From NCBI GenBank assembly GCA_937876775.1, contig CALEFA010000070.1, positions 62,001 through 126,000 of the forward strand: a DNA stretch of 64,000 nucleotides. Reading direction: 5' to 3'. The position numbers were made by a program, and so were the translations under genes. Under the pieces are notes generated by a model. The model saw only the letters and a list, made by a program, of their open reading frames with translations, was not told where the DNA came from and searched no databases. The stretch comes from an uncultured Rhodobiaceae bacterium. GTDB lineage: Bacteria > Pseudomonadota > Alphaproteobacteria > RS24. Of this stretch, positions 51,622 through 64,000 are shown one piece after another (position 1 is the first letter of the stretch; every line of letters starts with the position of its first letter).

Positions 51622-52074
51622 ATGGGCATGCAGGCGCCAAAAACCAGTTCTAAAGCCGCACGGCGGCCACGGTATCAGCCCATGGCTGAAATCAATGTGA
51701 CCCCAATGGTTGATGTTATGCTGGTGTTGTTGATCGTTTTCATGGTCGCCGCGCCTTTACTGAGCGTCGGCGTGCCAGTCAATTTGCCAAAAGCTGGCGC
51801 TCAATCTTTGCAAGGCGACAATGAGCCTTTGGCTATCACCATTGATGCGGCGGGCGACATTTTTATTGAAGAAAAACCGATTGCGCTGAAAGACTTGGTG
51901 CCGCGTTTGGAGGCCATTTTAGGGGCTGGTTATGATCAGCGTATCTATGTGCGCGGCGATCAGGCGGTCGCTTATGGGCAAGTGGCGCAAGTTGTGGCGC
52001 GCATTAATGCCGCTGGCTTTTCGCGTGTCGCTTTGGTAACCGATCACAAAACCGCCCCCCGAGGCAGGAAATAA
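51622..52074 (+). CDS. tolR: Tol-Pal system protein TolR
   Basis: A 150-residue protein with one membrane helix and a periplasmic domain. AEINVTPMVDVMLVLLIVF carries the key Asp on the helix used in proton flow. Five bases after tolQ, overlapping tolA by one base (TAATG). Confidence 0.97.
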   Translation: MGMQAPKTSSKAARRPRYQPMAEINVTPMVDVMLVLLIVFMVAAPLLSVGVPVNLPKAGAQSLQGDNEPLAITIDAAGDIFIEEKPIALKDLVPRLEAILGAGYDQRIYVRGDQAVAYGQVAQVVARINAAGFSRVALVTDHKTAPRGRK

Positions 52075-52910
52075 TGAGCCGCCTACTGCCGCAAATCAGA
52101 CCGGATCTGATGGGCTCATTGGGGCTGCATCTGGGGCTGATTTTATTGCTGACCTTTTGGACGCCAATGATGCCCGACCGTGTCCTAACCGATAGTGCCC
52201 TGCCGATTGACATCATCACTTTGGACGAGTTTACGCGTTTATTGGAATCCCCAAAACCGCTGGAAATTGTGAAAAGCCGGCCAGCGCCAATGCCAGTTCC
52301 AGCTCAGGCCGCGCCGGAAGTCGCGCCGCCACCCCCGAAAGCCCAAAACCAAGATGCCATGCCGGAATTGACCGCCAGACCAGCCCCGCCAGAGCCCAAA
52401 CCAGCCAAGCCAACGCCGCCGCCAATGGCAGATTTCAAAGTGACGTCGGCCAGTCCGGTAGCGCGGCCAAACCTGCCGCCTGCTAAGCCCAAGCCATTGC
52501 TGGATATTGGCCAATTGCGCGCCTTGCTTGACAAAACCCCCGATGCGGTTGCAACTGATAGCCCCGATGTGCCGCGCGAAGAGGCGCCGACGGGTGAAAA
52601 ATTAACCGTCAATGAAATCGACGCGTTTCGCGCGCAAATGCGGCGTTGCTGGTCGCCGCCTTCGGGTGCCCGCGGGGCTGAAAATTTAATTGTAAATGTG
52701 CGCTTGTCTCTTTCGCCAGAGGGTGCAATTTTAGCAGGACCAGTGGTGGTTAATCGCGGGCAGTTGGGTGACCCGTTTTTTAGGGCCGCCGCCGAGAGCG
52801 TACTGCGCGCCATTCGAAGGTGCCAACCGTTTACCATGCCAGTGGAAAAATATGCCAGTTGGCGTGACATAGAATTGACATTTGATCCAAGCAGAATGCT
52901 GGGTAACTAG
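52074..52910 (+). CDS. tolA: TolA-like energy-transducing protein
   Basis: A 278-residue protein with an N-terminal membrane anchor (residues about 14-31), a Pro/Lys/Ala-rich region (about 60-150) and a C-terminal globular domain (about 175-278) with [10 protein letters not shown] and [18 protein letters not shown]. It bridges the inner membrane to TolB/Pal. The long Lys/Ala helix of enterobacterial TolA is replaced by a shorter proline-rich spacer, normal for alphaproteobacteria. The two C-domain cysteines (in RRCWSPP and RRCQPF) could form the conserved disulfide. Confidence 0.92.
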
Positions 52911-52920
52911 GAGTGCTCAT

Positions 52921-54249
52921 ATGACTTTGCCATGCACAAGAAAAAACCAAGCTAACAAAGCCGCCTTCATCGGCCTGCTGATGTTCTTACTCATGCCGTT
53001 GCAAAATGCTGGGGCGGCGCTGAAGATTGACATCACGCAAGGCAATGTTGAACCGCTGCCGATTGCGATTCTGGATTTTGTTAGCGAGGACGGGGTCGGC
53101 GGCGATTTGGCGCAAGTGGTGATGGCTGATTTGGAGCGTTCGGGACTGTTTCGTCCGATTGCTCGCGAAGCCTTTATCGAAACCGAGCTTGATGTAAATG
53201 TTCGCCCAAAATTCAAGGAATGGCGGATTGTCAATGCCTTAGCCTTGGTGTCGGGGCGTTCTGTCATGCAGAATGACGGTCGTTTGCGGGTCGAGTTTCG
53301 GCTCTGGGATGTTGTCGCGCAAGAACAAATGACTGGCCTGCAATTCTTTACCACACCGGCCAATTGGCGCCGCATTAGCCATTTGATTGCTGATGCGATT
53401 TATGAGCGCCTGACCGGAGAGACCGGCTATTTCGACACACGAATTGTCTATGTATCTGAATCGGGCCCGAAAAACCGGCGGGTCAAGAAACTGGCGATTA
53501 TGGATCAGGATGGTTTTGCCCAAAGTGAGCTGACCAGTGGCCAATCGCTGGCCCTGACGCCGCGTTTCAGCCCGACGGCGCAGGAAATCACTTATCTGTC
53601 TTTCTATCGCAATCGGCCGCGGGTCTATTTACTGAATATTGAGAGTGGCCAACAGGAAGTTGTTGGTGATTTTCCCGGCATGACCTTTGCCCCGCGGTTT
53701 TCGCCCGATGGTCAAAAAATCATTATGAGCCTAGAGCGCAATGGTAATTCGAATATTTACACCATGGATTTGCGAACCCGTGAAACCCGCCGCCTAACTT
53801 CTTCCTTAGCGATTGATACGGCACCGTGTTACGCGCCCGACGGCAGCCAGATTGTTTTTGAGTCCGACCGTATGGGCACACAGCAATTATATGTAATGGA
53901 AGCTGATGGCACCAATGTACGTCGTATCAGCTACGGGCAGGGCCGCTATGGCACGCCAGTGTGGTCACCGCGTGGAGATTTGATTGCCTTTACCAAAACC
54001 TATAAAGGCCGGTTTTTGATTGGGGTGATGAAAACCGATGGCAGTGGCGAACGTATTTTGACCGAGGGTTTTCACAATGAAGGTCCGGCATGGTCGCCAA
54101 ATGGCCGCGTTTTGGCGTTTTTCAGAGAAAAGAAAGGCGCCGATGAAGGCCCCGGACTGTGGACGGTTGACGTCACCGGCTATAATGAACGGCCGATATC
54201 AACCCCAAGCTGGGCTTCCGATCCGGCTTGGTCGCCATTAATCAGGTAG
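52921..54249 (+). CDS. tolB: Tol-Pal system periplasmic protein TolB
   Basis: A 442-residue periplasmic protein: signal peptide (residues 1-34, [14 protein letters not shown]), an N-terminal domain and a six-bladed beta-propeller shown by repeats of [46 protein letters not shown] and [10 protein letters not shown]. TolB binds Pal. ATG 52921 is chosen: the in-frame 52882 start lies inside tolA and would hide the signal peptide. The separate gap before pal holds an inverted repeat. Confidence 0.96.
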
Positions 54250-54301
54250 ATTATTGGCCATCACAAAACTGCAACGATAGTGTGTTAATTAAATCATACG
54301 T

Positions 54302-54340
54302 CCGGTTGTTATTTAACGCTTTTGCTGATAATTTAACCGG
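54302..54340. repeat. Interrupted inverted repeat between tolB and pal
   Basis: CCGGTT (54302-54307) pairs with AACCGG (54335-54340), and TTAT just inside pairs with ATAA after a small bulge, with about 13 bases of loop. Followed by GAATGAGAAG, not U-run, so it is not a typical terminator; it may set the tolB/pal mRNA ratio or act as an operator. Confidence 0.5.
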
Positions 54341-54377
54341 AATGAGAAGAATATTTTGATAGTGTTAGGAGCTTCAA

Positions 54378-54881
54378 ATGAAAAATGTTAAATCAATTAT
54401 AGCTGTTGCGTCATTGGGCTTTGCTTTGGCTGCGTGCAGCGGATCGGCTCCACAAACGTCAAGCGGCTCAACCTCTGGTAGCTCTTCATCATCTTATTCT
54501 TCAACCTATGGCGGCGGTTCGTCTCTGTCATCTGACCAATTTTTGGGCGTGAATGTCGGCGACCGCGTATTTTTCGCCACCGACCAAGCCAGCATTGATG
54601 GCTCATCACGCGCTGTTTTGCGGGCACAAGCTGAATGGTTGGCACAAAATGCCAGTACCAGTTTGGTCATTGAAGGTCATGCCGATGAGCGTGGCACGCG
54701 CGAATATAATCTGGCTTTGGGTGCCCGTCGTGCCAATGCGGTGCGCGATTTCCTGATTAGCCAAGGCGTCGATAGCGCCCGTTTAGAAACCATCTCTTTC
54801 GGCAAAGAACGCCCGGTGTCTTTGTGCTCAGAAGAGAGCTGCTGGTCGAAAAACCGTCGCGCGGTTTCAACACCCCGCTAG
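54378..54881 (+). CDS. pal: Peptidoglycan-associated lipoprotein Pal
   Basis: A 167-residue outer-membrane lipoprotein: lipobox LALAAC-S with the lipidated cysteine at residue 20, a Ser/Gly/Thr-rich linker, and an OmpA-like domain with VIEGHADERGTREYNLALGARRA that binds diaminopimelate. Preceded by 128 bases with an inverted repeat and a good ribosome binding site (AGGAG), so it can be made in larger amount than TolB. Confidence 0.97.
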   Translation: MKNVKSIIAVASLGFALAACSGSAPQTSSGSTSGSSSSSYSSTYGGGSSLSSDQFLGVNVGDRVFFATDQASIDGSSRAVLRAQAEWLAQNASTSLVIEGHADERGTREYNLALGARRANAVRDFLISQGVDSARLETISFGKERPVSLCSEESCWSKNRRAVSTPR

Positions 54882-54914
54882 TATATGACGTTGACGATTG
54901 TGATATAATGATTG

Positions 54915-54938
54915 AGGGCGCCTTTGGGTGCCCTTTTT
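54915..54938 (+). terminator. Rho-independent terminator after pal
   Basis: Eight-base stem AGGGCGCC (54915-54922) with GGTGCCCT-like partner GGGTGCCCT (54926-54934), one G-U pair, four-base loop, then TTTTT (54934-54938). It lies between pal and cpoB, which share direction, so it would reduce cpoB-tilS expression relative to pal. Confidence 0.8.
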
Positions 54939-54976
54939 CGTGCCGTATTTTTGCCGATTTTGTATTGTAGGACGTA

Positions 54977-56191
54977 ATGATGAAGTCAGTTAATCAGTAT
55001 TTTAAGCCTGCCGCCCTTGTTTCGGCTCTGCTCATGACCGTCAGTTGGGCCCATGCCCAACAATTCGACGCGCCTGCGCGTGTTGATGTGCCGGAAGCGG
55101 CCGCCACACCGATTGAGGACAATCTGACCCCCGCCTTATCTTCCGATACGCTGCTTTTGGCGCGCATTGACCGTTTGGAAATAGCCTTGGCCGAGACTCG
55201 GCAAATGCTGCAAGCGCAGCGGGTGCTGTCGACCCGCAATCAGATGAAAGAGGCAATGGATTTGCGCAGCCGGCTGGAAATGTTGGAAAGCCAATTGTCC
55301 GGTGTAAATCCGGCGCAGCCAATAACTGGTTCAGTGCCCGATGATGTGGCCGCCAGTCTGGCGCAGAATGACGCCATCGCACGCAGTCGATTGAACGAAC
55401 TGGAAGATGCCACGCGAATAATGCGCGGCCAAATTGATGCGCTTTTATTGCAATTTGAAGCGCTCAATCAAAATAATCTGAGGGCCCGTGACGACAGTGA
55501 GTTTCGCTTCCAGCAGCTCGAAACCGCTGTGCGCAAAATTCAAGACGGTGGTGTGTCAACAGCAGCTGAACCTCAAGTGCTCGGCCGCATTCGACTGCCG
55601 GCACCCGTCGTGTCGACGACAACCCCGACGATTACTCAGGCAGATGGCTCTCAAACCGGCAGCCTAGACACAACAAATGCCGAAGCCACGCCGCTCGCGC
55701 CAAATGCTGCTTTGATTGCACCTTTGGCGGCTGATGATAAATTAATAGGTGAGGGCGAGATGCCAGTTCTCGGCCTCGAAACCCCGGTACGTCCAGTTTT
55801 GCAAGACCCGAAACAGCTTTATGAGCGCGCTTTGGCGGATTTACGCAAAGGTCTCTATGTTGAGGCTGAGGCTGACTTCAGGCAAATTCTAACCGCCTTC
55901 CCAGCCCATAATTTGGCGGGCAATGCGCAATATTGGTTGGGTGAAACTCATTATGTCCGACAAGACTATAAGGGCGCTGCCGAGGCGTTTTTGGCCGGCT
56001 ACACGACTTATGCTAAGAGCAGCAAAGCTCCCGACAGCCTCTTGAAGCTTGGTATTACTTTGTTTGCGTTGAATGAACAAAAAACCGGTTGCGACGCATT
56101 GGCCGAGCTTGGAGCAAAATTCCCAGAAGCTTCTCAGGCCATTGTCAAACGTGCCGAGATTGAAAAACGCCGTGCCGGTTGCCAAGGATAA
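54977..56191 (+). CDS. cpoB: Tol-Pal-linked cell-division coordinator CpoB (YbgF)
   Basis: A 404-residue periplasmic protein: signal peptide (MTVSWAHA end), an N-terminal coiled coil (about 55-200, for trimer formation), a Pro/Thr-rich linker, and a C-terminal TPR domain (about 280-400: PKQLYERALADLRKGLYVEAEADFRQI in parts; FPAHNLAGNAQYWLGE). CpoB ties peptidoglycan synthesis to Tol-driven constriction. It is longer than the E. coli protein (263) because of the linker. ATG 54977 and 54980 are adjacent; the first is used. Confidence 0.92.
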   Translation: MMKSVNQYFKPAALVSALLMTVSWAHAQQFDAPARVDVPEAAATPIEDNLTPALSSDTLLLARIDRLEIALAETRQMLQAQRVLSTRNQMKEAMDLRSRLEMLESQLSGVNPAQPITGSVPDDVAASLAQNDAIARSRLNELEDATRIMRGQIDALLLQFEALNQNNLRARDDSEFRFQQLETAVRKIQDGGVSTAAEPQVLGRIRLPAPVVSTTTPTITQADGSQTGSLDTTNAEATPLAPNAALIAPLAADDKLIGEGEMPVLGLETPVRPVLQDPKQLYERALADLRKGLYVEAEADFRQILTAFPAHNLAGNAQYWLGETHYVRQDYKGAAEAFLAGYTTYAKSSKAPDSLLKLGITLFALNEQKTGCDALAELGAKFPEASQAIVKRAEIEKRRAGCQG

Positions 56192-56204
56192 TCAGCCGAT
56201 TGGG

Positions 56205-57509
56205 GTGACGCCCTCCAGCTTTCTGCGCCAGCTCAAACAGCTTCACAAAGCGTCGCATTATGCGTTGGCTGTGTCGGGGGGCGCTGATTCCATGGCTTTG
56301 GTGGTTCTGGCCAGCCAAGCGGCGAGGTTGAAAAACGCCCCGAAATTCACCGTGCTTAGTGTCGACCATGGGTTGCGTTCGGCGGCCAAAGACGAGGTCA
56401 AGCAAGTGGCCGCGTGGTGCCGTCAACTGGGCGTGCCCCATCAAGCCTTGAAAGTGACCGACAAGCTCAAATCAACCGGCGTGCAAGAAGCGGCCCGCCA
56501 GCAGCGTTATCAATTAATGGCTGCGTGGTGTCGACAGCACAAGGCTGAGGCGCTTGTGGTCGCCCACCATCAGCAAGATCAAGCCGAGACTGTGCTGATG
56601 CGTCTGGCTCATCAAAGTGGCATTAATGGGCTGGCTGGCATGGTGGCGCGGCAGAAATTACGCCTTGAAGGCGAGCAGGTGACTTTGTTACGGCCATTTT
56701 TATCGCAGCCGCCCGAGAGCTTGCGCGCCATTTTGCAAAAAGCTGGTCAGTCTTGGCTGGAAGATCCGTCCAATGCCGATATGAAATTTGAGCGCGTGCG
56801 CACCCGCCAAGCGCTGCCAAATTTGGCGGACATTGGCCTCAGTGTGGCGGCGCTGGCTGATTTCGCCGATAAAATGCAAAGCCTGCGGACCAGTCTTGAC
56901 CGGCAGGCCGTTGATTGGCTGGGCGGACATGCTTGTTGGACGCCGCTTGGTTATATCGATATGGATGCAGCGGCATTTTTGGCTCTAGAAGGGTTGATGC
57001 GCCAACGTATTCTGGCAGCGCTTTTGCGGCATATGGGCGGGCAAGTTTATGCTCCGAAACGGCGCCGTCTCGATGCGCTGGTCACGCGACTGCAAGACAG
57101 CCCGTCGGGGGCCAGCACCTTGGGTGGTTGCTTGGTGCGTTGGCGCGGCGGGCGGTTAATGTTGGGGCGAGAAGAAGCCGCCCTATCGCCGCAGGCACGG
57201 TTGAAAAGCGGTCACACTGGCCCTCAATTGTGGGATGGGCGGTTTTTTATCAATTTATCGCCACAAAAAGCGGCGGCGGGTGTTTTTGTCGCGCCCCTCG
57301 GGAAAACTGGTTTGGCGGCGTTGAAAGCCGATGGATTGCTTATCAATAAACAAGTGCCATCCTCTTATCTTCATGTTTTACCAGCATTTTTTCTTAAGAA
57401 ACAGCTTCTGGCCTGTCCCGTTTTAGTGCCATCGCCCGACTATCAGGCGGTTTTGGCGGAAGAAAAACTTGATTTTAACACAATATTTGATGGATCAGCG
57501 GACTGGTAA
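56205..57509 (+). CDS. tilS: tRNA(Ile)-lysidine synthase
   Basis: A 434-residue N-type ATP-pyrophosphatase putting lysine on C34 of tRNA-Ile2, so that it reads AUA. The PP-loop is AVSGGADSM (residues 22-30), with DHGLRSAAKDE and AHHQQDQAET as further ATP/substrate motifs. The start is uncertain: the frame runs back to 56073 inside cpoB; GTG 56205, just after the cpoB stop, best matches the usual N-terminus. GTG 56172 is a second choice. Weak ribosome binding site. Confidence 0.9.
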   Translation: MTPSSFLRQLKQLHKASHYALAVSGGADSMALVVLASQAARLKNAPKFTVLSVDHGLRSAAKDEVKQVAAWCRQLGVPHQALKVTDKLKSTGVQEAARQQRYQLMAAWCRQHKAEALVVAHHQQDQAETVLMRLAHQSGINGLAGMVARQKLRLEGEQVTLLRPFLSQPPESLRAILQKAGQSWLEDPSNADMKFERVRTRQALPNLADIGLSVAALADFADKMQSLRTSLDRQAVDWLGGHACWTPLGYIDMDAAAFLALEGLMRQRILAALLRHMGGQVYAPKRRRLDALVTRLQDSPSGASTLGGCLVRWRGGRLMLGREEAALSPQARLKSGHTGPQLWDGRFFINLSPQKAAAGVFVAPLGKTGLAALKADGLLINKQVPSSYLHVLPAFFLKKQLLACPVLVPSPDYQAVLAEEKLDFNTIFDGSADW

Positions 57510-57554
57510 AATGCCCTTGCCCGACCTATATTCTAGGAAAGGCATAATGAGGCT

Positions 57555-57568
57555 GACGCCAAGGCGTC
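57555..57568. repeat. Inverted repeat in the ftsH leader
   Basis: GACGCC-AA-GGCGTC, six-base perfect arms, lies 36 bases before the ftsH start. No U-run. A possible regulator site or small hairpin. No clear heat-shock (sigma-32) promoter is visible in this 94-base gap. Confidence 0.35.
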
Positions 57569-57603
57569 GTTTGGGGTGACTTTCAAATTAAAAGGAAAAG
57601 GTT

Positions 57604-59514
57604 GTGAATAGTATGAGAAATCTGGCTGTTTGGGTTGTTGTTGCACTAATGGTGTTTACCCTGTTCAACGTCTTTCAAGGCCCGTCATCACGGGCCAGTG
57701 ATCGCGAGATTAATTTTTCGCAATTCACCGCAGAGGTTGATACGGGAAGCATTGCCGATGTGACCATTGAAGGTGACGCGATCAGCGGCCATTACACTGA
57801 TGGTTCGTCATTTACCACTTTCGCTCCCCCCAATGACGCGACGCTGGTGCAGCGCTTGCAAGAGCGCGGCGTGTCAATCACCGCCAAGCCAGACCGGTCT
57901 AATTCGCCAAGCCTGCTCGGTGTGTTGATTTCATGGTTCCCAATGCTATTGTTGATTGGTGTGTGGGTATTCTTCATGCGTCAAATGCAAGGCGGCGGAC
58001 GTGGCGCCATGGGGTTTGGTAAATCGAAAGCCAAATTGCTGACCGAAGCACATGGCCGCGTGACCTTCGAAGATGTTGCCGGAATCGATGAAGCCAAAGA
58101 TGATTTGCAAGAAATTGTTGAGTTTTTGCAAGACCCGAGCAAGTTCCAACGCTTGGGCGGTCGTATTCCAAAGGGTGCACTTTTGGTTGGCCCTCCTGGT
58201 ACGGGTAAAACACTTTTGGCACGCGCCATTGCTGGCGAAGCCAATGTGCCTTTCTTTTCAATCTCTGGTTCCGACTTTGTGGAAATGTTTGTCGGTGTCG
58301 GCGCCAGTCGCGTGCGCGATATGTTTGAACAAGCGAAGGCCAATGCCCCTTGCATTATTTTCATTGATGAGATCGACGCCGTCGGGCGTCATCGTGGCGC
58401 AGGCCTCGGTGGCGGAAATGACGAGCGCGAGCAAACTTTGAACCAATTGCTGGTTGAGATGGACGGTTTTGAAGCCAATGAAAGCATCATTTTGATCGCG
58501 GCCACCAACCGCCCAGATGTTCTCGATCCAGCGCTGCTGCGTCCGGGTCGTTTTGACCGCCAAGTTGTGGTGCCAAACCCTGACATTATTGGTCGTGAAA
58601 AAATTCTCAAAGTGCACATGAAGAAAACGCCGCTGGCGGCTGACGTTGACCCACGGGTGATTGCCCGCGGCACGCCGGGTTTCTCAGGTGCTGATTTGGC
58701 CAATCTGGTCAATGAGGCGGCCCTTCTGGCGGCGCGTCGAGCCAAGCGATTGGTCTCCATGCGTGAGTTTGAAGACGCGAAAGACAAGGTTATGATGGGG
58801 GCCGAGCGCCGTTCCATGGTGATGACTGAAGAAGAGAAAAGACTGACGGCCTATCACGAAGGCGGTCACGCTTTGGTGGCCTTGAATATGGAAGCCTCAG
58901 ACCCAGTGCATAAGGCGACAATTATTCCGCGTGGCCGCGCCTTGGGCATGGTCATGCGCCTGCCGGAGCGTGATCAGCTTTCGGTGACGCGTGGTAAAAT
59001 GAAAGCCGATTTGGCCGTCGCAATGGGCGGACGGATTGCGGAAGAGATTATTTTTGGCCATGAGAAAGTTACCTCAGGCGCATCTTCTGATATTCAAATG
59101 GCAACCAATATGGCCAAGGCCATGGTCACCCAATATGGAATGAGCGATGAAATGGGCCCGTTAGCCTATGGCGAAAACGAGCAAGAAGTGTTCCTTGGCC
59201 ACTCCGTCGCCCGTCAGCAAAATATGTCAGAAGACACACAACGCCGGATTGATGCCGAAGTGCGCAAGCTGGTCGAAGAGGGCTATGAAATGGCCCGCAC
59301 GATTTGTCAGGACAAAATCGCTGACCTTCACGTGATTGCCAAAGGTCTGTTGGAATATGAAACTTTGTCAGGCGACGAGATTATCGGTCTGCTGAAAGGC
59401 GAGCCGCCGCATCGTCCTGACGATGACATTAGCTCAACACCGAAAGGCCCGAGCTCGCCATTCCCTAAAACGGGTGGTGCTGGCGTCGGTGGACCAGAAC
59501 CGCAAGGAACCTGA
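57604..59514 (+). CDS. ftsH: ATP-dependent zinc metalloprotease FtsH
   Basis: A 636-residue membrane AAA+ protease degrading misassembled membrane proteins and regulators such as LpxC. Two membrane helices (about 6-24 and 105-124), Walker A GPPGTGKT (196-203), Walker [10 protein letters not shown], second region of homology ending [13 protein letters not shown], and zinc motif HEGGH (418-422). The start is GTG 57604, giving [10 protein letters not shown] as in relatives; AAGG precedes it. The folP-like gene follows. Confidence 0.97.
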
Positions 59515-59531
59515 TCAAGGTGGGGCGATCC

Positions 59532-60326
59532 ATGCCAAAGATTTTTGGCATTGTGAATATTACCAGCGACAGTTTTTCTGATGGTGGCCAATATTTGGCG
59601 CCGGAAAAAACCTTGGCTCATGCTCAGCAGTTGGTTGATACGGGGGCTGATGTGCTCGATATCGGGCCGGCCTCAAGCCACCCCGATGCGGGGGCGGTGA
59701 CACCGGCTGAAGAAATCGCTCGTTTGCAGGGCGTGTGGTCGCTGTTAAAAGCTCTTCCAGCCGGTCTGTCGGTAGATAGTTTTCAAATAGAAACGCAACG
59801 TTGGGCAATCGCGCATGGCACTGATTGGCTCAATGATATCAACGGTTTTGCTGAGCCTAGCCTATATGATGAATTGGCCGATGCGTCTTGTCAGCTGGTC
59901 GTTATGCACGCCATTCAAAGCAAAGGCATTGCCCGCCGCGCGCCAGCCCCTGATGGCGATATTTGGGATCATATTTTACGGTTTTTTGAAACCCGCCTGA
60001 AAGTTCTGGAAGACGCCGGCATTGCCCGCGATCGTCTGGTGATTGATCCGGGTATGGGGTTTTTTCTCGGCAATGACCCGCAAACCTCGCTAAGGGTTTT
60101 GGGCGGCTTGTCGCGTTTGAAACAGGCTTTTGACGCCCCTGTGTTGATTTGTGCTTCGCGCAAAAGTTTTCTGCGGGCTATTGCCAATGTATCGCTGGCC
60201 GAGGTCGGGCCGGTTTCATTGGCTGCTGAACTTCTGGCCACAGCGCAAGGCGTCGATTATATCCGCACCCATGAGGTGGCTCCTTTGGCGCAGGCCCTGA
60301 CGCTATGGGGCGAGGCAGAAAAGTAA
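59532..60326 (+). CDS. folP: Dihydropteroate synthase of the Sul (sulfonamide-resistant) type
   Basis: A 264-residue TIM-barrel enzyme joining p-aminobenzoate to dihydropterin-PP. It departs from ordinary FolP and matches Sul1/Sul2: FGIVNITSDSFSDGG (5-19), GPASSHPDA (45-53, where FolP has GGESTRPGA), DINGF (102-106), LVVMH (122-126), and DPGMGFFLG (172-180), where standard FolP has DPGFGFGK. The extra Phe in this loop is the feature reported to let Sul enzymes take pABA but exclude sulfonamides. SRKSFLRA is also shared. ATG 59532 has AAGGTGGGG upstream. It lies directly before glmM, whose fragment accompanies mobile sul2. No other folP is in the window, so this is probably the housekeeping enzyme. 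Intrinsic resistance is predicted, not shown. Confidence 0.88.
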   Translation: MPKIFGIVNITSDSFSDGGQYLAPEKTLAHAQQLVDTGADVLDIGPASSHPDAGAVTPAEEIARLQGVWSLLKALPAGLSVDSFQIETQRWAIAHGTDWLNDINGFAEPSLYDELADASCQLVVMHAIQSKGIARRAPAPDGDIWDHILRFFETRLKVLEDAGIARDRLVIDPGMGFFLGNDPQTSLRVLGGLSRLKQAFDAPVLICASRKSFLRAIANVSLAEVGPVSLAAELLATAQGVDYIRTHEVAPLAQALTLWGEAEK

Positions 60327-60401
60327 TAAATTGCAATAGCTTGTTACTTGCTTCTCAGCACCAATCGCCGACATATGTAAGCTAGACGAAGAGGGTAAGC
60401 T

Positions 60402-61748
60402 ATGATTCGGAAATATTTCGGTACCGATGGTATTCGCGGCACGGTCAATGGCGATAAGATGACGGCCGAAATGGCGCTTCGATTGGGCATGGCGGCTGGA
60501 CAATATTTTCGCCGCGGCCAGCATCGCCATCGTGTGGTGATTGGCAAAGACACGCGCTTATCTGGCTATATGATAGAACCGGCTTTGGTGGCCGGTTTTA
60601 CCGCTATGGGTATGGACGTATTTCTGTTCGGGCCGATTCCGACGCCGGGGGTGGCATTTTTGACCCGCTCATTGCGCGCCGATATTGGCGTAATGATTTC
60701 CGCCTCGCATAATGAATTTCAAGATAATGGCATTAAGCTATTTGGCCCTGACGGCTTTAAATTATCGGATGAAATTGAATTTGAAATTGAGTCGCTGATG
60801 GATACGCCTTCACAGGCCGCGCTTGTGCCTGCCTCAGATTTGGGTCGCGCCAAACGAATTGATGACAGTCAGGCTCGTTACATCGAATTTGCCAAACGCA
60901 CTTTCCCGCGCGATATGAATCTCGAAGGCATCAAACTGGTCATCGATTGCGCCAATGGAGCGGCTTATAAAGTGGCGCCAACCGCGCTGTGGGAATTGGG
61001 CGCTGAAGTCGTTAGTATTGGCGTGTCGCCCGATGGCACCAACATCAACAAAGACTGTGGCTCCACCCGTCCGGCCCTATTATCCGAAAGGGTGAGGGCA
61101 GAGAAAGCCGATATTGGCATTGCGCTGGATGGCGACGCCGACCGGTTGATCGTCTGCGATGAAAAAGGCACAATCATTGACGGTGACCAAATCATGGGGC
61201 TGGTAACTGATGATTGGCAAAAACGTAACTTGCTCAGCGCGCCAGGCATTGTCGCGACGATTATGTCTAACCTTGGTTTAGAGCGGCATTTGCAAGGTAA
61301 TGGCCTATCATTGGCGCGCACAAAAGTTGGCGACCGTTATGTCGTGGAACATATGCGGCGCCATGGCTTTAATCTCGGCGGCGAGCAATCGGGCCATATG
61401 GTGCTGTCGGATTATTCAACCACTGGCGATGGGCTGATCGCAGGTTTGCAAGTTTTAGCGGCGATGAAATATTCAGGTCGCCCTGCTTCTGACTTAACGC
61501 AGGTATTTGAACCAGTGCCGCAAATTCTAGAGAATGTGCGCTTTACCACCGGCGCGCCGCTGGACAATGAAGATGTCATAAAAGCCATTGCGGCGGCTGA
61601 GATTAAATTGGGCAATCAAGGGCGTTTGGTTATTCGTCCATCAGGCACCGAGCCTCTAATCAGAGTGATGGGCGAGGGCGATGACGCCGCATTGGTCAAA
61701 GATATCGTCGCCGAAATTGTTGGCACCATTCAGTCGGTTGCTGCATGA
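60402..61748 (+). CDS. glmM: Phosphoglucosamine mutase
   Basis: A 448-residue alpha-phosphohexomutase turning glucosamine-6-P into glucosamine-1-P for UDP-GlcNAc, needed for peptidoglycan and LPS. The phosphoserine is Ser102 in MISASHNEF; the metal loop is ALDGDADR; the sugar loop is GGEQSGHM; the phosphate loop is [12 protein letters not shown]. Full length and intact. ATGA overlap with thiD. Confidence 0.97.
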
Positions 61749-62605
61749 CACAAGACGCGTCGAAAGCCGTTTCGCTGGGGCGTGTTTTGGTGATTGCCGG
61801 TTCTGATAGCGGCGGCGGCGCCGGCATTCAGGCAGATATTAAATCAATCATGGCGCAGGGCGCTTATGCAACGACGGCGATTACCGCGCTGACGGCACAA
61901 AATACGCGCGGTGTCGATGATGTGCTCGATGTGCCGCCAGATTTCGTGGTGCGGCAAATTCAGTCGATTATGAGCGATATCGGCACAGATATTGTGAAAA
62001 CCGGCATGCTGCATCGGCGCGAGATTATTGAGGCTGTGGCACAGCAATTTGACACCAAACAAGCGCCACCCCTGATCGTTGATCCGGTGATGGTCGCAAC
62101 CTCGGGTGATCGTCTTTTGGAAGATAAGGCCATTGATGTGGTGATGCAGTTGTTGGTGAGCAAAGCCTCTTTGGTGACGCCGAATTTGCCCGAAGCAAGT
62201 TTGATGACGCGCCGCGACGTTGAAACGCTCGACGATATGAAACGCGCCGCCGATAAAATTATGGATAAGGGCGCTCGTGCAGCTTTGATTAAGGGCGGTC
62301 ACGGCCAAGAGCGCGTGGTCTATGATTTACTCGCCCAGTCATCGGGCTTTGAGGTGTTCGAACACGAGCGATTGGTCAGTAAAAACACGCATGGCACAGG
62401 GTGCACGCTGGCGTCGGCTTTGGCGGGACAATTGGCAGCGCAAACAAATCAGGCACGCGATGAGCAGCGCGCCGACGGATTGGATCTTCTTGTGGCAACG
62501 GAAAAAGCGCTGAACTATGTGCATCACGCGATTGCCACGGCGCCAAGCAATATTGGCAGCGGCCATGGCCCCTTGAATCATCTGGGCATGACGCGCCAAG
62601 AATAA
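61745..62605 (+). CDS. thiD: Hydroxymethylpyrimidine/phosphomethylpyrimidine kinase
   Basis: A 286-residue ribokinase-fold kinase making HMP-PP for thiamine. [18 protein letters not shown] opens the domain; [18 protein letters not shown] and [15 protein letters not shown] give the anion hole and catalytic Asp/Gly region. No other thi gene nearby and no TPP riboswitch seen. Its start overlaps the glmM stop. Confidence 0.94.
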
Positions 62606-62688
62606 TGGTTTCGATTCTTTTTCCACAGGGGTGAGTGGGTTAATTTTCGCCGTTGTCTGCGCGTTTGCGCGAGTTGCTAAAACATCAT

Positions 62689-62717
62689 TTGCCAACCTCT
62701 CATATTCGGCCTATATC
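62689..62717 (+). promoter_or_regulatory. Predicted serC-serA promoter
   Basis: TTGCCA (62689-62694, five of six), 17 bases, TATATC (62712-62717, four of six). Start of transcription would be near 62724, giving a leader of about 47 bases that consists almost wholly of two hairpins. Confidence 0.6.
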
Positions 62718-62723
62718 GGTTCT

Positions 62724-62770
62724 GGGACACCCTTCCCCACCGAAGGGCAACTATCTGAGAGGGTAGCGAT
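62724..62770 (+). ncRNA. Candidate serC leader RNA (two hairpins, ribosome binding site in the second)
   Basis: Hairpin 1 is CCCTTC (62730-62735), loop CCCACC, GAAGGG (62742-62747). Hairpin 2 is CTATC (62751-62755), loop TGAGAGG-type, GGTAG (62762-62766) with one G-U pair; it holds GAGAGGGTAG, the likely ribosome binding site, just before the serC ATG at 62771. This matches the position and two-hairpin style of the serC RNA motif described upstream of serC in alphaproteobacteria. Its ligand or mechanism is unknown. I cannot check the consensus here. Confidence 0.6.
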
Positions 62771-63934
62771 ATGACAGCTATACAAATGCCAGACGTGCGT
62801 CCGGCAAACCCAAATTTTTCTTCCGGCCCGTGTGCAAAACGGCCGGGTTTTTCTCTTAATGTTTTACAAGATGCCGTCCTCGGGCGCTCACATCGTTCAA
62901 AGCCTGGTAAAGCCAAGCTGCTTGAAGCGATTGATCGTACGCGGTCTGTGCTTGGTGTGCCAGATGATTACCACATCGGCATTGTGCCAGCCTCAGACAC
63001 CGGTGCTTATGAAATGGCCATGTGGAGCCTATTGGGCGCGCGTGGCGTGGATATTCTCGGCTGGGAAAGTTTCGGCAAAGGCTGGATTTCTGATGCCGTC
63101 AAGCAATTGAAACTCGACGATGTGCGGGTCATGGAAGCCGATTACGGACATTTGCCTGATTTATCGGCCGTTGATTTCACCCGCGATGTTGCCTTTACAT
63201 GGAATGGCACCACCTCCGGTGTGTGCGTGCCGAATGGCGATTGGATTGCCGCTGACCGTCAGGGGCTGACCCTGTGCGATGCGACATCGGCCGCTTTCGC
63301 CATGCCTCTGGCTTGGGATAAGCTCGATGTGACAACCTATAGCTGGCAGAAAGTGCTGGGTGGTGAAGCGGCCCACGGCATGTTGATTTTAAGCCCGCGC
63401 GCGGTTGACCGTCTGGAAAGCTATACACCACCATGGCCAATGCCAAAAATCTTTCGCCTGACCAAAGGCGGCAAGCTGATTGATGGTATTTTCCGCGGTG
63501 AAACCATCAACACACCGTCTATGCTGGCGGTTGAAGATTATCTCGACACTTTAAAATGGGCCGAAAGCCTTGGCGGTTTGTCAGGTCTGTTGGGCCGCGT
63601 CGCTGCCAATAATAAAGTGCTCAATGATTGGGTCGATGCATCTGATTGGGCCGGTAATTTATGCGCTGAGAAAGCCAATCGTTCGACCACGTCTGTGTGT
63701 TTAACGATTACCGATAGCGATATCGCTGCGCTTGACGCAGAGGCGCAAGCCGCTTTCGCTAAGAAAATCGCCTCGCTATTGGATAGCCAAGGCGTGGCCT
63801 ATGATATTGGTGCCTATCGCGATGCTCCTGCCGGACTTCGCATTTGGGCTGGCGCCACCGTTGAAGCGGCCGACTTGGCCGCCCTTACCACATGGCTCGA
63901 CTGGGCCTTTGCAACTGCAAAACAGGATATATAG
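62771..63934 (+). CDS. serC: Phosphoserine transaminase (alphaproteobacterial type)
   Basis: A 387-residue PLP aminotransferase converting 3-phosphohydroxypyruvate and glutamate to phosphoserine; it may also serve pyridoxine synthesis. It belongs to the longer alpha-type subgroup: [15 protein letters not shown] near the N-terminus, [13 protein letters not shown], and the PLP lysine in [15 protein letters not shown]. The enzyme is followed two bases later by serA, so the two serine-pathway steps are cotranscribed under the leader RNA. Confidence 0.96.
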
Positions 63935-63936
63935 AT

Positions 63937-64000
63937 ATGCCTAAAGTACTTATTGCTGACAAAATGAGCCCGCGTGCAGCGGAAATTTTTAAAGAACGTG
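63937..64000 (+). CDS. serA: D-3-phosphoglycerate dehydrogenase, N-terminal end (truncated by window edge)
   Basis: Only 21 residues are visible (MPKVLIADKMSPRAAEIFKE in part), matching the start of SerA, which oxidises 3-phosphoglycerate to phosphohydroxypyruvate. The gene continues beyond 64000. The call relies on the N-terminus and its place two bases after serC. Confidence 0.85.
   Translation, partial: MPKVLIADKMSPRAAEIFKER

Follow-up and report, generated by a model that had tools for sequence, protein, structure and literature searches.

The single folP gene in the genome of a marine alphaproteobacterium very probably encodes a housekeeping dihydropteroate synthase (DHPS) of the Sul type that was inherited at its ancestral locus; the host would be intrinsically tolerant to sulfonamides, and the mobile gene sul2 would come from the Parvibaculum branch. 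The gene was located at 59532..60326 on the plus strand of the window, as we call the whole stretch of 64,000 nucleotides analysed here, and codes for 264 amino acids. The host is a member of the marine PS1 clade, in the family (f1) of the alpha proteobacterium IMCC14465, which NCBI places in the PS1 clade, Alphaproteobacteria incertae sedis. Another member of this family (L133) carries the label Rhodobiaceae; the genome set analysed here treats PS1 and Parvibaculaceae as two orders. Chromosomal Sul-type folP genes of Rhodobiaceae, termed FolP*, e.g., that of Parvibaculum lavamentivorans, have already been published (Sanchez-Osuna et al. 2019, PMC6335563), and the window gene is a further member of that kind. 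FolP* has the same two-residue insert, is the sole chromosomal DHPS and lies likewise beside glmM, in some genomes also beside ftsH. The window protein differs from the FolP* of Parvibaculaceae in belonging to another family and order, with a protein identity of about 57 %, and its resistance is a prediction.

A Sul-type DHPS at an ordinary chromosomal locus

The window protein reached 236 bits with the DHPS equivalog model TIGR01496 of NCBIfam (cut-off 162.6). The models of Sul2, Sul1 and Sul3 gave the highest scores, above the E. coli-type FolP, and all three remained far below their own strict cut-offs (289.4 of 575 bits for the curated Sul2 model), which fits a relative and not a copy of these enzymes; the protein is not Sul2 itself. 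Amino acid identity was 53.6 % to Sul2, 47.5 % to Sul1, 32.3 % to E. coli FolP and 30-39 % to ordinary alphaproteobacterial FolP. The nearest PDB chains were Sul2, Sul1 and Sul3 (274-238 bits), followed by ordinary FolP (148 bits). A search with PF00809 revealed no second folP in the host genome of 1.7 Mb, rated 100 % complete, which answers a point raised by the original prediction; the only other match was located inside a 1243-residue frame and is taken as the pterin domain of MetH. FolK is also encoded in the genome.

The neighbourhood consists of genes on the plus strand: the ordinary envelope genes tolR-tolA-tolB-pal-ybgF(cpoB) (51622..56191; the assignment of tolB is based only on sequence and position, and the scores of tolR and tolA are below the model cut-offs), tilS (56073..57509, with an uncertain start codon and a listed frame that overlaps the end of ybgF), ftsH (57604..59514, 636 aa, 884.9 bits with TIGR01241), folP, an intact glmM (60402..61748, 448 aa, 615 bits with TIGR01455 at a cut-off of 447.55), thiD (61745..62605) and serC (62771..63934). 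No mobile element was seen around folP, direct repeats of at least 20 nt were not found at 55000-64000, and the plasmid sequences searched contained no DNA nearly identical to the gene. Its GC content of 53.6 % is close to the 53.0 % of the window, and GC and GC3 match those of the neighbours. A plasmid or ISCR element with a truncated glmM is not present here, glmM being intact. The original prediction had described a settled housekeeping locus between ftsH and an intact glmM, free of mobile elements, and these findings bear it out, together with the presence of the gene throughout the order described below. It had also read the order folP-glmM as a sign of kinship to sul2. This reading does not hold: the order ftsH-folP-glmM is common to E. 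coli and to alphaproteobacteria with ordinary FolP, so that folP-glmM is not diagnostic of such kinship.

The six segments on which the assignment to Sul had been based were all present in the 264-residue frame and in the order given, with DPGMGFF at residues 172-178. The codons for DPGMGFFLG (residues 172-180) are located at 60045..60071 on the plus strand and include the two-residue insert in the DPG loop, which occurs in all Sul-type rows and is absent from all ordinary FolP rows collected. Phe177 aligns with Phe179 of Sul2, the residue that excludes sulfonamides (PMC10328974), and the Met and Leu near it are also kept. The ligand residues of Sul2, as defined in PMC10328974, map one to one on the window protein: N12 on N9, S17 on S14, F18 on F15, S52 on S49, N104 on N101, D174 on D172, F179 on F177, K213 on K211 and S214 on S212. 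An AlphaFold model was obtained with a pLDDT of 94.5; its best 13 PDB matches were all Sul structures, headed by the Sul2-dihydropteroate complex 7s2k (TM 0.97, rmsd 1.0). A degenerate DNA pattern for DPGMGFFL was scanned against GTDB. Of the matches listed, at least 80 loci, 75 fell within the frame of a DHPS and the other 5 did not, thus the motif is not a chance occurrence. Within family f5, two Sul-type FolP proteins (L189 in G198, L192 in G345) carry Gln or Leu at the position of the key Phe (DPGMGQFLG and DPGMGLFLG). Such natural variants lend themselves to testing if sulfonamide exclusion depends on this Phe alone.

In comparison with known systems, the window protein shares with the plasmid-borne Sul2 (PDB 7s2j/7s2k) a 54 % identity, the ligand residues, the equivalent of Phe179 and the fold, but is chromosomal and non-mobile, is accompanied by an intact glmM and scores below the cut-off of the Sul2 model; Sul2 falls within Parvibaculum. 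The clade and the loop are also shared by Sul1 and Sul3, at 45-48 % identity; both are mobile, unlike the window gene. Ordinary FolP, e.g., of E. coli (PDB 1ajz), agrees in family, fold and the position between ftsH and glmM, but has 32 % identity and lacks the insert. By description, the window gene also resembles the resistant DHPS recovered from soil (Willms et al. 2019, PMC6416219), which are non-mobile and natural as well, but come from several taxa as metagenome clones.

The enzyme would condense DHPP and pABA in folate synthesis. Published Sul structures and mutants, in which the additional Phe constricts the site of pABA against sulfonamides, lead us to infer a Sul mechanism: the two-residue insertion would put Phe177 on the outer rim of the pABA pocket, where, by analogy with Sul1-3, pABA may be admitted and the bulkier sulfonamides excluded. 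Such an exclusion would render the PS1 host intrinsically tolerant, and natural sulfonamide tolerance, as the original prediction had it, is a sound prediction by this analogy. With the folP* of P. lavamentivorans, E. coli reaches a sulfamethoxazole MIC of >512 mg/L, up from 8 mg/L (PMC6335563).

Distribution and probable descent of the Sul type

In the order of the host, a Sul-type folP was present in 26 of 28 genomes and in all 15 near-complete ones, hence it is regarded as an inherited housekeeping enzyme. Within the family, these proteins diverge to 48-93 % identity; the most divergent one (L028 in G003, 48 %, branch length 1.2) is encoded at the same locus. For Parvibaculaceae the counts were 37 of 40 genomes and 27 of 27 near-complete ones. 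Three hundred eighty-seven alphaproteobacterial genomes, drawn evenly from the class, yielded 29 matches at E <= 1e-45. All except one were of the Sul type (28 matches) and originated from nine families (f1, f5, f10, f38, f50, f110, f112, f115 and f129); the exception, in G172 of family f101, was an ordinary FolP by its loop.

A DHPS tree of 97 rows, calculated after removal of the motif columns, split the Sul type from ordinary FolP at 100/99 and thereby confirmed the proposed enzyme type. The window protein was placed in the PS1 family (94/95), close to the Mf 1.05b.01 group, so that a lineage other than Parvibaculum and Leptospira with the same enzyme, as had been suspected, is identified as the PS1 clade. 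Mapped on the tree computed from FtsH and GlmM, the neighbours of FolP, the Sul label required 2 changes, with 15.2 expected after shuffling, which favours descent within the alphaproteobacteria. One ordinary folP (f4) falls inside the Sul-bearing part of this tree. As the deep branches among the alphaproteobacterial Sul types are weakly supported, strict vertical descent is likely but short of proof. The gene has very probably been inherited at the ancestral tilS-ftsH-folP-glmM-thiD locus throughout the order of the host, and this inheritance probably goes back to the ancestor of a broader group of alphaproteobacterial families. A different history is indicated for family f38, where a Sul-type folP is inverted between ftsH and glmM (L200:5050-6300, G361) and groups with non-alphaproteobacterial proteins; this looks like an independent acquisition at the native locus.

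Outside the Alphaproteobacteria, the Sul type was the sole DHPS in the sampled Planctomycetota, Myxococcota, Leptospiraceae and Binatota and in two Bacteroidota MAGs. Loci of this kind were observed in Planctomycetota (L040, L043, L046, L065), Deltaproteobacteria/Myxococcota (L067, L071, L081) and Binatota (L114), phyla that are unnamed in the main text of the origin paper of 2019 (PMC6335563). Lewinella, a Bacteroidia MAG, an Ignavibacteria MAG, a Treponema MAG, a betaproteobacterium and Bacteroides luti had the Sul type beside an ordinary folP. A Sul3-like DHPS was detected in Lewinella sp. W8 (L035), at L039:3292-4529 and in Bacteroidota KLAP123 (L103); it scored 346 bits with the Sul3 model, whose cut-off is 475. 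Its DNA is 100 % identical over 1238 bp between L035 and L039, in different Bacteroidota, and adjoins a catB-type gene; in L103 the identity is 100 % over 644 bp, the contig ending inside the gene. Lewinella W8 and the Bacteroidia MAG that carry it also have an ordinary folP. This is probably an unlisted mobile sul gene, of which Treponema and Ignavibacteria MAGs hold versions with 78-82 % identity.

Sul3 itself groups with proteins of Bacteroidota/Leptospirales. Its nearest relatives among the matches listed are the only DHPS of a Paludibacteraceae MAG (L064, 72 %) and of a Prevotellaceae MAG (L097); in the Bacteroidota family of these relatives the type occurred in 5 of 81 genomes drawn. In the published model, sul3 derives from Leptospiraceae. 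Sul1 joined the Parvibaculaceae in one tree and formed a long branch of no firm placement in the 97-row tree.

A probable Parvibaculum origin of sul2

The window gene had been proposed as a likely relative of the sul2 source. The alignment and tree suggested for this question place it in the Sul clade, but not near Sul2: at 54 % identity, it compares with 65-91 % for Parvibaculum proteins, and Sul2 is nested within Parvibaculum (12 rows, 100/95) as the sister of a Parvibaculum MAG (100/99). In AU tests, a clade of the PS1 family with Sul2 was rejected (p-AU 0.00076), as was a pairing of the window protein with Sul2 (p-AU 1.2e-5).

The sister MAG, Parvibaculum sp. E19_concoct.bin.15_sub (G100 in one genome set and G091 in the other, at the same place), was represented in the pattern scan by a 78-kb contig (JAUSLL010000003.1, L083). 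Its intact folP-glmM-thiD at L083:2763-6006 is the closest chromosomal relative of sul2 among the matches listed. Plasmid sul2 with the spacer and the glmM stub aligned to it without gaps over 1155 bases at 85 %, starting 11 bases before the start codon. By part, the DNA identity was 82.7 % for sul2 and 91.7 % for the glmM stub, and the E19 protein is 91 % identical to Sul2. The next genomes had about 72/85 %, and G072, which we take to be P. lavamentivorans DS-1, had 66.4/79.8 %. The corresponding parts of the window reached 64.9/74.0 %. In a tree of the sul2-linked stub, the latter grouped with E19 (98/94), with PS1 outside. The earlier best value, between P. lavamentivorans and sul2, was 63.3 % (PMC6335563, 2019), and a structural paper of 2023 called the direct ancestor of the sul genes unidentified (PMC10328974). 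No later paper naming a closer source of sul2 was found in the open-licence literature. E19 marks close kin of the donor and not the donor, because 83 % is below donor-level identity and E19 is a MAG.

We consider it rather probable that the Sul-type folP is no peculiarity of Rhodobiaceae received from Leptospiraceae, but a DHPS form of long standing, inherited in a broad alphaproteobacterial clade of at least eight families including PS1 and present as the only copy in further branches within Planctomycetota, Myxococcota, Binatota, Leptospirales and some Bacteroidota. In this view, sul2 was taken from a Parvibaculum that is closely related to MAG E19, and sul3 is nearest to genes of Bacteroidota.

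Alternative explanations and implications

Three other explanations of the window gene have very little probability. If the protein were an ordinary FolP whose loop matches by chance, it would belong to the same enzyme family and show the same fold; this candidate was ruled out by the tree without motif columns and by the pattern matches in DHPS frames, and ordinary alphaproteobacterial FolP are too distant in identity, so that hardly any weight is left to it. A mobile sul gene that was acquired recently and displaced the native folP would agree with the nearest named relatives in PDB and plasmids being Sul enzymes. This history is highly improbable in view of the fixation across the order, the divergence within the family, the base composition matching the neighbours, and the lack of mobile elements and of near-identical plasmid DNA; neither a cohort of relatives lacking the gene nor a near-identical plasmid copy was seen. 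The PS1 lineage as source or nearest chromosomal relative of sul2 was suggested by the identity to Sul2 and a gene order as in the sul2-glmM fragment, yet Parvibaculum proteins are closer to Sul2, and the AU tests, the stub tree and the DNA identities ruled PS1 out as donor; we give this origin almost no chance.

More weight, although still an unlikely case, is carried by the explanation that the Sul loop is an old variant kept for other reasons than drugs, such as pABA affinity, natural pABA analogues or drift, with a window enzyme that is perhaps only weakly insensitive to sulfonamides. As drugs, sulfonamides are synthetic; the Sul type occurs as the sole folP across a range of old lineages, and members of family f5 have Gln or Leu at the key position. 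Against it, two chromosomal relatives tested by others gave an MIC of 512 mg/L or more (PMC6335563), and the key Phe with the nearby Met and Leu is fully kept in the window protein. The favoured explanation is thus an inherited Sul-type housekeeping DHPS, with sul2 arising from Parvibaculum as another branch of the same group, and not from PS1. The original prediction was right on the enzyme type and its housekeeping status; it erred on the nearness to sul2 and put too much weight on gene order.

Clinical resistance through sul genes is both old and common. With the intact native folP-glmM junction in a much closer relative, the origin of sul2 becomes directly testable. A marine lineage with the Sul type as its only DHPS means that intrinsic tolerance to sulfonamides probably extends beyond the published cases.
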